Origin: Selenomonas sp. oral taxon 920
GTDB lineage: Bacteria; Bacillota; Negativicutes; Selenomonadales; Selenomonadaceae
Length of the DNA stretch: 64,000 bases
Assembly (NCBI RefSeq): GCF_001717585.1
Contig: NZ_CP017042.1
Span: 1,642,501-1,706,500 of the forward strand
Direction: 5' to 3'
Under the pieces are notes generated by a model. The model ran no database searches and had not been told where the DNA came from. It was given only the letters and a program-made list of their open reading frames with translations. The position numbers and the translations under genes are program-made. This document shows, piece after piece, positions 55,142-63,840 of the stretch (the first letter of the stretch is position 1; the number at the start of each line of letters is the position of its first letter).

Positions 55142-56128
55142 ATGTACGCATTCAAACATTTACTCACTGCCCTGCTATTATGCACGCTATGCATCATCCC
55201 ATACACCGCCTCTTCCGCCGATACGAATGCAGACTACCGGGGTTATGTCTGGCGCATCGATACAGCGGCGGGCAATGCGGCGGAGCTGCCGCACAATTTC
55301 CGCACGGCGGCATCGCCATTCCAAACACGGACAGACGCGGCGAAGTTCGGTGTCGACCCGAACTACACTCCCTCTCGCGAGGGGCTAGACGCCCTTCCGC
55401 TCTCGGGAAGCGCGGAGTTCTCCGTCCCTGCCTTTCACGCGCTGCTGAAAGACCTGCACACGCGCGCAAAAGGCTCGATCTGTATCGTCGATCTGCGGCA
55501 GGAGTCGCACGGCTTCATGAATGGGAACGCCGTCAGCTGGTATGGCAAGCACGACTGGGGCAATATCGGCCGGACGAAGCACGAGGCACTGCGTGACGAG
55601 AACATGCGCATTCGCAGTGCACAGGGCAAGGATGTCGTGCTCGCGCACCTCGACAAGAAAAAGCAGCCAAAAAATCAGCAGACCATCCGCGTCACGGCGG
55701 CGATGACGGAGCGTGAGCTGGTCGAGGATGCGGGAGTGCGCTACGTCCGTCTCGCCGTCACCGACCACAAATGGGCAGACCCACAGACCATCGACAATTT
55801 TGTCGATCTCGTGAAAAAAATGCCTGCGGATACATGGATGCACTTTCACTGTCAGGCAGGCAAGGGACGCACGACCAGCTTTATGGCGATGTACGATATG
55901 ATGAAAAATCCCTCCGTCCCGCTGAAGGACATTCTCTATCGTCAGTACCTGCTCGGCGGAGCATACCTCGCCTACGACCCGACCACGCAGCATGCACCGG
56001 CGGGATGGGAGGATGCAGACTACCATTACAAGTCAGAAATGATCGCAAAGTTCTACGACTACGTTCAGCAGAATCACGAGGGCAACTATGCCGTACCGTG
56101 GAGTACGTGGCTGAAGAAGAATCCATAA
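55142..56128 (+). CDS. Secreted PTP-like phytase / inositol polyphosphatase
   Basis: This 328-residue exported cysteine phosphatase is like Selenomonas ruminantium phytase. It has a signal peptide (about 1-25, cut after SSA). The P-loop HCQAGKGRTT at residues 236-245 gives catalytic Cys237 and Arg243, and Asp208 in VTDHKWAD is the likely general acid. It would remove phosphates from inositol phosphates outside the cell. Compared with the usual HCEAGVGRTT loop it has Gln and Lys at two positions, which could change charge selectivity. AGAGGG precedes the ATG. It is monocistronic. Confidence 0.9.
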   Translation: MYAFKHLLTALLLCTLCIIPYTASSADTNADYRGYVWRIDTAAGNAAELPHNFRTAASPFQTRTDAAKFGVDPNYTPSREGLDALPLSGSAEFSVPAFHALLKDLHTRAKGSICIVDLRQESHGFMNGNAVSWYGKHDWGNIGRTKHEALRDENMRIRSAQGKDVVLAHLDKKKQPKNQQTIRVTAAMTERELVEDAGVRYVRLAVTDHKWADPQTIDNFVDLVKKMPADTWMHFHCQAGKGRTTSFMAMYDMMKNPSVPLKDILYRQYLLGGAYLAYDPTTQHAPAGWEDADYHYKSEMIAKFYDYVQQNHEGNYAVPWSTWLKKNP

Positions 56129-60887: not shown

Positions 60888-60916
60888 TTGTCACATTCCC
60901 CCGCCTGTGCTATAAT
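60888..60916 (+). promoter_or_regulatory. Promoter of the P-type ATPase-like gene
   Basis: TTGTCA and TATAAT with a 17-base spacer and TGTGC before the -10, the same elements as the trpD promoter. Confidence 0.78.
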
Positions 60917-60949: not shown

Positions 60950-62308
60950 GTGAAGAAATTTTTCTCCACATTTTCACATTTCATTGCCAGCGTCATTCTC
61001 GCAGCGGGTGCAGCTGGGTATTGGTATGCGGCGGGCGATGTTTCAATCGAAACGGCATCCGAAATCTTTCTCGGTGTCTTCCTCGCCGCGTCACCGCTGC
61101 CATTTTTCGTCTCACGCAGGTTCATTGCGCTGCGCATCAAACGCCGTCTGCATGGCTGCGGGGTAACATGCAGCCGCACGAGCGCACTGACCGAACTGCT
61201 GCACGTTGACACGATTGCATTCAACCGCAACGGCACGCTCACAGAGGGCAGTGTATTCATCTCCGCACTTGTGCCCGAAGGCATGACGCAGGGCTCGCTG
61301 CTCGCACTCGCCGCCAGTGCCGAACGCGAAGCGACGCATCCCTATGCGCACGCGCTCTACGATACCGCCGTTCAGCGCGGTCTGCATCTGCAGCGTCACT
61401 CTGCCGCACATGAGACGGAGAGCTTCGGAGTCGAAGCACTGATCGCGCGTACGCCCGTACGTGTTGGAAAGAAGGAATGGCTGCAGGAGGAAAACATTGA
61501 GATCAGTGCTGCGCTCCTCACGCGTGCCGACCAGCTCGCCACGAGCGGACAGACGCCGCTCTTTGTCAGCTCGAGCAAGTACGCACGCGGCATTATCGCC
61601 GTCCGCGACGATATACATGCTGAGGTCAGACGTGCACTGCAGGCCCTCAAGGAGCGCGGGCTATCCCTCATCCTCCTCACAGGCGAGACAAAGCGTCTCG
61701 CGAACGCGACGGGCAAGGAGCTCCGCATCGCCGAGGTGCGCTCCGATCTCACAAGCGCAGATAAGGCGCGTGAGATCCGACTGCTCCAATCACACGGCTC
61801 CGTTGTCGCGATGGTCGGCGACCCGATGGCAGATCAAGCCGCTATGCGTGCAGCAGACATCAGCATCGGCTGCCCATCCTCCTACGAGAAGCAGCCCGCA
61901 GTCGAGTCGGACGAGACACCGCACGATCCGCTGCACGAGGAGCTTCTGCGCGGACCGGACGCAGAAGAAGTGCCGCAGGAAACCGAACCGCTGATGTCGC
62001 CCGAGGATGCCGCCTACTTCGAAGCACAAGCGCTGCGCAATCAGGGACGCTCTACGAATTTCACTCCCGACATCACGCTTGCCGCTGAGGGGCTTCCGAG
62101 TCTCGTCGACCTCTGGGATACGAGCAACGCTGCACGCGCACGTGCAAAGCAGAACCTCTGGCTCGGCATTCTCTTTCTCCTCCTCTTCTCGCCCACTGCA
62201 GCAGGAGTATTCAGTTTCCTCGGCGTTGCAGCGCTCCCCTATCAATTTGTGGGAGGTGCCCTTATTTTCTTCCTTGTTCTGCTTGTTGTGAACGCGCTTC
62301 GGGAATGA
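60950..62308 (+). CDS. Degenerate P-type ATPase-like membrane protein (HAD pseudoenzyme)
   Basis: This 452-residue protein aligns by eye with the catalytic core of P1B metal ATPases but has lost key parts. The phosphorylation motif DKTGT is NRNGT at 92-96, so the acceptor Asp is Asn. The hinge GDGxND is GDPMAD at 290-295. The metal-site CPC is replaced by ASPLP near 47. The actuator domain (TGE) is missing. The N-domain THP at 129-131 and LLTGET near 242 remain. Two hydrophobic segments lie at each end (10-27, 37-56; 403-420, 432-449), and an acidic insertion lies at about 312-365. A GTG start follows AGGAGA. cydA follows 161 bases later. Function unknown. Confidence 0.85.
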   Translation: MKKFFSTFSHFIASVILAAGAAGYWYAAGDVSIETASEIFLGVFLAASPLPFFVSRRFIALRIKRRLHGCGVTCSRTSALTELLHVDTIAFNRNGTLTEGSVFISALVPEGMTQGSLLALAASAEREATHPYAHALYDTAVQRGLHLQRHSAAHETESFGVEALIARTPVRVGKKEWLQEENIEISAALLTRADQLATSGQTPLFVSSSKYARGIIAVRDDIHAEVRRALQALKERGLSLILLTGETKRLANATGKELRIAEVRSDLTSADKAREIRLLQSHGSVVAMVGDPMADQAAMRAADISIGCPSSYEKQPAVESDETPHDPLHEELLRGPDAEEVPQETEPLMSPEDAAYFEAQALRNQGRSTNFTPDITLAAEGLPSLVDLWDTSNAARARAKQNLWLGILFLLLFSPTAAGVFSFLGVAALPYQFVGGALIFFLVLLVVNALRE

Positions 62309-62354: not shown

Positions 62355-62383
62355 TTGTATTTCATTTTAACCTATGATATAAT
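62355..62383 (+). promoter_or_regulatory. Promoter of cydAB
   Basis: TTGTAT and TATAAT with a 17-base spacer. The leader is about 80 bases. Confidence 0.75.
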
Positions 62384-62400
62384 TCACCGAATCAAGGGCT

Positions 62401-62423
62401 TTTGTCGCAATCCGTGTGACAAA
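62401..62423 (+). promoter_or_regulatory. Inverted repeat in the cydA leader, candidate operator or hairpin
   Basis: TTTGTC and GACAAA are separated by 11 bases about 10 bases after the predicted transcription start. It could bind a redox regulator or fold in RNA; it is not a good Rex site. Confidence 0.4.
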
Positions 62424-62469
62424 GGGCGGTGATATTATCACAGGTTTTATTTTTAGGAGGGGTTTGGAA

Positions 62470-63840
62470 ATGGAAGAAGTGCTGCTGTCACGATGGCAGT
62501 TTGCAATCACCACCATCTATCACTTTCTCTTCGTCCCCGTCACCCTCGGCATGGCGATCTTCGTCGCCCTGCTCGAGACGTGCTACGTGAAGACGAAGAG
62601 ACCGGAATGGAAGAAGACCTGCCGAAAGCTGCTGCATTTCTTCGGCACGCTCTTTCTCATCAACTTTGCGATGGGTGTCGCTACCGGTCTGGTGCAGGAA
62701 TTCCAGTTCGGCATGAACTGGTCGGAGTACGCTCGCTTCATGGGTGATATCTTCGGTGCACCGCTCGCACTCGAAGCACTTACGGCGTTCTTCCTCGAGT
62801 CGACGTTCCTCGGCATCTGGATGTTCGGCTGGGACAAGCTGTCCGAAAAGGCACACTGCGCGTGTATCTGGCTCGTCGCGATCGGCAGCAACCTGTCGGC
62901 ATTCTGGATTCTCGTTGCCAACTCCTTCATGCAGCACCCCGTCGGCTACACGATCGCCAACGGACGCGCAGAGATGGCAAACTTCTTTGAACTCATCACG
63001 AACCACTATATCCTCGGTGAGCAGTCGCACACGCTCTTCGCGGGCATCACAACGGCAGGCTTCGTCATCATGGCGGTCTCGGCATGGAAGCTGCTCCACG
63101 ACGAGGAGTCGCGCTACGCCTTTACACAGGCGATCAAGGCGGGTGCAATCTACACCATCGTCGGCGTCATCGGCGTCATCATGAGCGGACATTTCCACAC
63201 GCAGTACCTTGCACAGGCAAGTCCGATGAAGCTTGCGGCAATGGAGGCGCTCTGGGAGACGGAGGATCCCGCCCCGTTCGCCGTGCTCGCCTATCCAAAC
63301 ATGGAGAAGGGGCATAACGACTTTGAGATCACGATTCCCTATATGTTCACCATCATGGTGCATGACAACATCAAGGGCGAGGTGCGCGGCATCAACGACC
63401 TCCAGAAGGAAGCGGTCGAGAAGTTCGGCCCGGGCGACTACCGTCCGCACGTAACGATGCTCTTCTACTCCTTCCGTGCGATGGTCGGCGCCGGATTCTT
63501 CATGGTACTTGTCTCGCTTGTCGTATTCTACCTGGCAAAAAAGGACAAGCTGTTCTCGGCAAAGAAGCTGCTCTATGCGCTCCCGTGGCTTGTCATCGTT
63601 CCTTTTATTGCGAATTCCTGCGGCTGGATCGTTGCGGAGATGGGTCGTCAGCCGTGGCTTGTCATGGGGCTGCAGAAAACCATTGACGGCGTGTCGCCGA
63701 ACCTCAGCGCAGGAGAGATCATGTTTACAATGATCGGCTTCACCGTGCTCTATCTGCTGCTCATCATCACGGCACTCTACATAGCCTTCCGCTTCATCCG
63801 CCGCACGCAGATCACACCTGCCATCGAAGGAGGAAAGTAA
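62470..63840 (+). CDS. cydA: Cytochrome bd ubiquinol/menaquinol oxidase subunit I
   Basis: CydA holds haems b558, b595 and d and reduces oxygen with quinol. The 456-residue protein is the short-Q-loop type. SRWQFAITTIYHFLFVPVTLG opens the protein with His18, a haem ligand. FFLESTFLGIW near 100 holds the conserved glutamate, and GRQPW near 394 is the family signature. Nine or so membrane segments are present. AGGAGG precedes ATG 62470. cydB follows after 2 bases. Confidence 0.96.
   Translation: MEEVLLSRWQFAITTIYHFLFVPVTLGMAIFVALLETCYVKTKRPEWKKTCRKLLHFFGTLFLINFAMGVATGLVQEFQFGMNWSEYARFMGDIFGAPLALEALTAFFLESTFLGIWMFGWDKLSEKAHCACIWLVAIGSNLSAFWILVANSFMQHPVGYTIANGRAEMANFFELITNHYILGEQSHTLFAGITTAGFVIMAVSAWKLLHDEESRYAFTQAIKAGAIYTIVGVIGVIMSGHFHTQYLAQASPMKLAAMEALWETEDPAPFAVLAYPNMEKGHNDFEITIPYMFTIMVHDNIKGEVRGINDLQKEAVEKFGPGDYRPHVTMLFYSFRAMVGAGFFMVLVSLVVFYLAKKDKLFSAKKLLYALPWLVIVPFIANSCGWIVAEMGRQPWLVMGLQKTIDGVSPNLSAGEIMFTMIGFTVLYLLLIITALYIAFRFIRRTQITPAIEGGK

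Follow-up and report, generated by a model that had tools for sequence, protein, structure and literature searches.

A conserved family of P-type ATPase pseudoenzymes of CopA descent in the Selenomonadaceae

The present study identifies a real and conserved family of pseudoenzymes in the Selenomonadaceae that descends from the copper exporter CopA. The member analyzed here lies directly upstream of cydAB in Selenomonas sp. oral taxon 920 (Table 1), in a window (the whole stretch of DNA analyzed) of 64,000 nucleotides, and one locus still shows the whole series: active pump, full-length dead pump and dead half pump. The reading that we favor, with modest confidence, is that a redundant copper pump was exapted as a membrane protein that no longer pumps and is organized around its nucleotide domain. 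A more specific version, which we put forward only tentatively, is that the exapted pump may be a membrane-anchored nucleotide (energy-charge) sensor, which binds ATP but cannot consume it and controls a partner in the membrane. P-type ATPases are generally viewed as pumps or flippases whose mechanism involves an aspartyl phosphate; a conserved family that keeps the nucleotide domain while dropping the transport and phosphorylation residues would show that the P-type scaffold can serve another purpose. Moreover, with a series at one locus and an active paralogue as a control in the same genomes, the birth of a pseudoenzyme becomes directly testable.

Table 1. Features of the pseudoenzyme gene and of the adjoining cydA region (window positions)
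Feature	Position	Strand	Basis or detail
Promoter-like site of the gene	60888..60916	+	TTGTCA, 17 nt, TATAAT; TG before second hexamer
CopA-derived P-type ATPase pseudoenzyme gene	60950..62308	+	452 codons/452 aa, GTG start, open ORF
First membrane segments, residues 4-69	60959..61156	+	Predicted structure aligned to CopA 7r0g 333-725
NRNGT (residues 92-96) replacing the phosphorylation motif DKTGT	61223..61237	+	Translation, family alignment
N (nucleotide) domain, about residues 108-205	61271..61564	+	Has E125, H130-P131, G160, E162, G173
P (HAD) domain, second part, about residues 206-310, with K272	61565..61879	+	Alignment, predicted structure
GDPMAD replacing GDGxND, residues 290-295	61817..61834	+	Translation, family alignment
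Acidic, low-confidence linker, residues 312-365	61883..62044	+	Low pLDDT; pN/pS 0.42
Last membrane helices, residues 383-450, M5-M6 equivalents	62096..62299	+	Family alignment, predicted structure
Candidate own promoter of cydA	62355..62383	+	TTGTAT, 17 nt, TATAAT
cydA, cytochrome bd subunit I (named from its sequence family)	62470..63840	+	ORF, ATG at 62470; homologue in 119/151 family genomes

Profile matches and structure alignments together identify the window protein as the second half of a CopA. The best PDB matches of its profile are CopA copper ATPases, CopA (PDB 3rfu, 7r0g, 3j08 and 3a1c-e) being the closest known system, and its AlphaFold model (mean pLDDT 83.4, pTM 0.70, with block means of 41-55 across residues 311-350) aligns over 389 residues with residues 333-725 of CopA 7r0g (Z 25.7, rmsd 3.6) and over 263-268 residues with the nucleotide-bound P/N domains of CopA in 3a1c-e (Z 30.3-30.7, rmsd 1.7-1.9). 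Residues 4-69 correspond to the helices located before the P domain in CopA, and the P/N domains and last helices are homologous to those of CopA in both sequence and structure, which places the protein in the P1B-1 group by descent. The initial annotation had described a P1B-like relative with membrane segments on each side and had proposed a comparison with CopA or ZntA; the predicted structure does have helices before and after the cytosolic P/N unit, and the description can be refined, the closest kin being copper CopA-type ATPases. The nearest NCBIfam model, that for heavy-metal P-type ATPases (TIGR01525), scores 173.6 bits, under its cut-off of 346, and TIGR01494 (HAD-IC family P-type ATPase) scores 86.1 bits, over its curated cut-off of 62.3. 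The latter name would mislead, since the catalytic residues are absent; an automatic rule could call the protein an ATPase on that score, so counts of metal pumps may wrongly include proteins of this kind.

Although it shares the second-half fold of CopA, the window protein has fewer helices and lacks parts that a working pump needs. In the acceptor motif, FDKTGTLTEG has become FNRNGTLTEG, which puts Asn at residue 92; the CPC metal site reads S-P49-L, in which the Pro is retained and both Cys are gone; and the last helices have lost the YN and MxxSS copper ligands and retain the terminal N-x-L-R. The CopA metal-binding domain is missing, and no actuator domain, with its TGES motif, was found by Pfam scan or in the predicted structure, the sole Pfam match at E <= 0.001 being PF00702 (Hydrolase) at residues 86-303. 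The N domain has kept E125, H130, G160 and G173 among the nucleotide contacts of P1B ATPases, and the first Gly of GxG is replaced by Ser158. The substituted acceptor, the altered GDGxND, the degenerate CPC, the missing actuator and the retained HP, from which a membrane pseudoenzyme had originally been proposed, were all confirmed by translation, domain search and family alignment, and the proposal itself is supported; the protein is conserved across genomes. The acidic insertion reported with them exists as a low-confidence stretch, though a poorly conserved one. The ORF list and translation reveal no internal stop in the gene.

Homologues were counted in a sample of 151 Selenomonadaceae genomes. 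The window protein has a match at E <= 1e-40 in 120 of them, and a 14-member profile gives some match in every genome because ordinary ATPases match too. Counting each genome's best listed match yielded 134 orthologues; G004 and G033, whose first matches resembled ordinary CopA, were initially omitted, and a later check of the 17 omitted genomes found in each of these two a degenerate copy beside ispE (552 and 627 aa), while the other 28 matches made into loci all had DKTGT. An orthologue is present in 136 of the 151 genomes, the acceptor motif having been read in all: six are active-looking CopA copies with the Asp (G009, G015, G023, G024, G038 and G048, that of G023 being cut by a contig end) and 130 are degenerate. 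The latter total is the sum of 71, 57 and 2. The alignment set has 77 degenerate rows and omits duplicates, L003, L004 and the broken frames L032 and L068; these last two were returned in a set of 57 further copies, and L137, L143, L145, L146, L150 and L164 were taken as the same genomes as rows of that set. Apart from G095 (a fragment) and G140, the degenerate copies can be read at the acceptor column, and 127 of these 128 lack the Asp.

All 14 sampled genomes of the window's genus keep NRNGT (13) or NRSGT (1), which points to more than chance, and named relatives at 71-86% identity include S. noxia, S. infelix, S. artemidis, S. felix, S. flueggei, S. massiliensis and Centipeda periodontii (the oral Selenomonas/Centipeda group). 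A class-wide search at E <= 1e-75 found matches in 52 of 250 genomes, 50 of them in the same family; the two outside it are open frames of 842 and 789 aa. No relative of the window protein was found in the viral contigs searched. Conservation of the Asn, which the initial annotation proposed to check, holds throughout the sampled genus, apart from no member, and not across the family, where the 77 degenerate rows have N in 17, A in 16, S in 14, G in 14, P in 8, T in 4, R in 2, C in 1 and D in 1. The number of degenerate copies excludes a decayed pseudogene of a single strain. Homologues with an intact DKTGT in the same place, the other observation that might have overturned the initial annotation, do occur, in the six genomes named above and beside ispE in at least three; they represent the ancestral state and do not imply that the window protein is active.

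Among the degenerate copies, an acceptor Asp occurs in one of the 77 aligned rows, in none of the 55 further readable copies and in neither of the two copies found last. The first and second CPC Cys survive in 11 and 3 of the 77 rows and the CPC Pro in 74 of 76, the M5 Tyr and Asn in 1 and 2 of 75, and the TGES columns are a gap in 66 of 77, with Glu in only one of the 11 others. Neither the GDG residues nor the K, T and G of DKTGT are held constant, which suggests that precise P-domain chemistry is not required. In the N domain, G160, E162 and G173 are present in 77/77 rows, E125 in 73/77, H130 in 70/77 and P131 in 65/77; the first Gly of GxG is present in 55/77, and Ser occupies its column in 17/77, the window protein included. 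The His of HP is Asn in 10 of the 57 further copies, all of one genus, and is missing from both g5 copies. E155 is found in 87% of degenerate rows and in none of the 12 active rows, a pattern that we take as a sign of new constraint; R171, W177, Q195, R274 and E275 are likewise more conserved in degenerate than in active rows. One full-length degenerate copy beside ispE and cydA (G019; L065:4284-6224) retains the Asp, in YDRSGT, but no longer has GDGxND or the greater part of the actuator domain; it may be a missing link or may represent a reversion.

Gene maps of 110 loci, some genomes being represented twice, reveal a recurrent place in which genes that we take by eye from their sequences to be prs, glmU, a GntR regulator and ispE lie on one strand and the ATPase-like gene is divergent from ispE. 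Active copies, dead copies of full length and dead copies of half length are all found there. Only in the two g24 genomes (G024, locus L077, and G048, locus L320) does ispE adjoin a csoR-copA-copZ-cydA group with an active pump, in which a CsoR-type repressor (PF02583) stands before CopA and a CopZ-like HMA protein and then cydA stand after it. Megamonas (L046) has a CsoR-like gene, an active CopA and ispE, and active CopA orthologues thus occupy the same place in both lineages. Full-length dead copies occur in that place in L061, L065, L069-L075, L078, L145, G004 and G033; around another, in L062, only the GntR gene was called of the conserved neighbors. Full-length dead copies therefore bridge the active and half-length copies at one place, and the cyd neighborhood of the window gene is inherited from the active csoR-copA-copZ-cydA arrangement.

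In the tree, the degenerate clade lies beside the active Megamonas-type copies L046/L047, with full support (100) for the joint clade and a support of 77 for the degenerate clade, a value at which one loss and several losses are indistinguishable. L060/L063, which are not beside ispE in the maps, and L077 branch below the joint clade, and the degenerate copies sit on long branches. The gene has been lost from its place in g10 and g22, where ispE and cydA are still neighbors; in the 1.1 kb ispE-cydA interval of g10, tblastn at E <= 1e-3 found no remnant, and an iron-sulphur ferredoxin-like ORF is there instead. Among the CopZ-like neighbors of dead pumps, both Cys of MxCxxC are missing in that of L069, whose Pfam score is under the cut-off, one is missing in that of L072 and both are present in that of L070; the losses suggest that the chaperone decays with the pump. 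In g21 (L231 and L232) the dead gene is directly followed by a TPR-like gene that, judged by eye, follows cydC in the window genome, and a TPR-like gene, again by eye, lies near the dead gene of L305 (g5); the layout looks as if cydABDC had been excised.

Purifying selection acts on the gene in the window's genus. Median pairwise Nei-Gojobori dN/dS in the window's genus is 0.118 for the gene (13 sequences, 78 pairs), 0.071 for cydA and 0.15 for the active CopA paralogue (12 sequences, 66 pairs), and in other degenerate clades it is 0.115, 0.119, 0.171, 0.159 and 0.261 (the last being g12), ratios that are rough because dS is high for the gene (median 1.09 in the genus and 1.3-1.7 in the other clades). 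In the dead protein, pN/pS is 0.06 in the N domain (the lowest of eight segments), 0.07 in the acceptor region, 0.16 in the second P part, 0.20 in the first helices, 0.37 in the last helices and highest in the acidic linker, whereas in the active paralogue it is 0.29 in the N domain, 0.22 in the acceptor region, 0.18 in the second P part and 0.11 in the last helices. The constraint map is thus inverted relative to that of the active paralogue of the same genus.

Collectively, these data are consistent with a model in which the ancestor was a CopA exporter encoded next to ispE in a csoR-copA-copZ group that preceded cydABDC. As comparison of the copies shows, the degenerate forms have lost the copper ligands and the phosphorylated Asp, and most of them the metal-binding and actuator domains as well. 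The membrane helices and cytosolic P/N unit that remain are held, in the window's genus, by purifying selection centered on the N domain. The window protein would then be neither phosphorylated nor pumping, and its N domain may either still bind an adenine nucleotide or present its former site as a docking face, in a membrane-anchored regulator or scaffold whose candidate partners are the second CopA, from co-occurrence, and CydAB/CydDC, from neighborhood. A metal or haem sensor, as initially suggested, is not borne out, the copper ligands being gone. In the sodium pump, removal of the acceptor charge raises ATP affinity, a point for which a literature search gave no confirmation and on which we do not rely. 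In PMC5089723, the equivalent Glu contacts adenine, the glycines line the pocket and the HP His contacts the phosphates; E125, H130, S158, G160 and G173 of the window protein were matched to these contacts by spacing and alignment. According to the same paper, isolated plant N domains did not bind ATP when tested, so the kept residues do not prove binding, and for this reason, and because the HP His is lost in some copies, the nucleotide-sensing step is an inference.

Other systems offer partial parallels. Truncated ATP7B copper ATPases arise from alternative transcripts, and there, as here, the second half is a separate protein; however, those forms keep the catalytic Asp and are products of alternative transcription, unlike the window protein. 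A fold kept under selection after the loss of catalytic residues is typical of pseudoenzymes generally, the subject of PMC5106787 and PMC10211241. The initial annotation knew of no such family beside cyd genes, and we found no dead P-type ATPase family described in the open-licence PMC literature, which is weak evidence of absence.

The second CopA bears on both the origin and the possible partner of the pseudoenzyme. With the window genome's other CopA (L002, 879 aa) as query, 145 of the 151 genomes have one match each at E <= 1e-150. In the six active-copy genomes this match is the orthologue itself, the next-best ATPase being at most 37% identical, so that a separate CopA is present in 124 of 130 degenerate-copy genomes versus 0 of 6 active-copy genomes; separateness was judged by eye from positions, and the separate CopA genes are identified by this match. 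The six degenerate-copy genomes without a separate CopA (G011, G018, G031, G068, G077 and G111) are draft assemblies, 69-94% complete and split into 190-380 contigs. Redundancy therefore goes with degeneration, an association that may reflect a single event, given that in the tree the active copies diverge below the degenerate clade, and that must not be counted as 136 independent cases. The same counts, together with the common ancestry of the membrane and P/N parts, could be explained if the half pump pairs with the second CopA as a regulatory partner or decoy and tunes copper export. We consider this unlikely, since redundancy alone would give the same association, the last membrane helices, a likely contact surface, are weakly constrained, and the two genes are not adjacent.

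That the protein serves cytochrome bd alone, as a factor for its assembly, insertion or regulation encoded with its operon, in line with the assembly factor initially proposed, is unlikely. The window gene is indeed directly upstream of cydA, after which come genes that we take by eye from their sequences to be cydB, two ABC genes resembling cydD and cydC and finally one of TPR-like type. The 14 genomes of the genus all have the gene 159-650 nt upstream of the cydA match, though in the maps it is no longer beside ispE, and its promoter-like site and that of cydA have similar hexamers. Across the 136 orthologue genomes, however, cydA (searched at E <= 1e-40) is adjacent in 39, with its match on the same strand and at most 900 nt downstream; in 70 it lies elsewhere, and in 27 there is no match; when elsewhere, it is on the same contig in 4 of 70 and on another in 66, some of which may be assembly breaks since the contigs differ. 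In addition, ten genomes have cydA and no orthologue was found in them. The constant linkage or co-occurrence expected of a bd accessory factor is thus absent, and bd factor as a general role is rejected; a conserved cydA neighborhood, which the initial annotation proposed to check for, is a property of the window's genus and not of the family, and a lineage-specific role with cytochrome bd is possible. The neighborhood itself derives from the active copper operon, and the dN/dS of 0.115 noted above, equal to that of the genus, belongs to seven S. ruminantium-type copies away from cyd. The gene's promoter-like site is predicted by consensus scan at 11/12, with TTTGTC and TATAAT invariant in 9/9 aligned genus members and an AGGAG site 5' of the gene conserved in 9/9 relatives; both hexamers of the cydA candidate, which the scan did not list, are invariant in 7/7 genus members. 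Because each has its own conserved promoter-like site, the gene and cydA could be expressed apart. Cytochrome bd contains no copper. The CopA2-type ATPase CcoI/FixI, which acts in cbb3 oxidase biogenesis (PMC8475189), is a CopA relative that serves a respiratory oxidase; however, that oxidase is a copper enzyme, and the transport site of the window protein is gone.

A slowly decaying, functionless relic would account for the long branches, the drifting motifs, the gene losses in g10 and g22 and the Cys losses in the CopZ-like neighbors of two dead pumps, and up to nine of the 130 degenerate copies may be interrupted or shifted (G029, G077, G140, G147, G061, G105, G126 and G132, with G056 leaving the alignment near residue 413). 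We nevertheless regard this as very unlikely: frames are open in at least 121 of the 130 copies, dN/dS is below that of the active paralogue, the promoter-like site and AGGAG are kept in 9/9 relatives, and new constraint, as at E155, has appeared. The profile matches of G105, G126 and G132 (g21) cross an in-frame TAG, which lies outside the open frames, since these, at 381-386 aa, have no stop. Least probable of all is an unusual working phosphatase or ATPase with another nucleophile, for although the HAD Lys272 persists in 66/77 and the Asp of ND in 61/74 degenerate rows, HAD chemistry requires the motif-I Asp, and the replacements of that Asp are many and varied.

Three smaller points concern the surroundings of the gene. 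A split gene with its actuator half next door was considered and rejected: the upstream neighbor is on the opposite strand and looks like a quinone oxidoreductase. The cydA leader carries TTTTGTC...GACAAA-like inverted repeats (window positions 62396-62430), which take a varied form in other genus members and are a candidate operator or leader structure. Farther upstream, positions 55142-56128 encode a probably exported protein with HCQAGKGRT, which we take to resemble the PTP-like phytase of Selenomonas.
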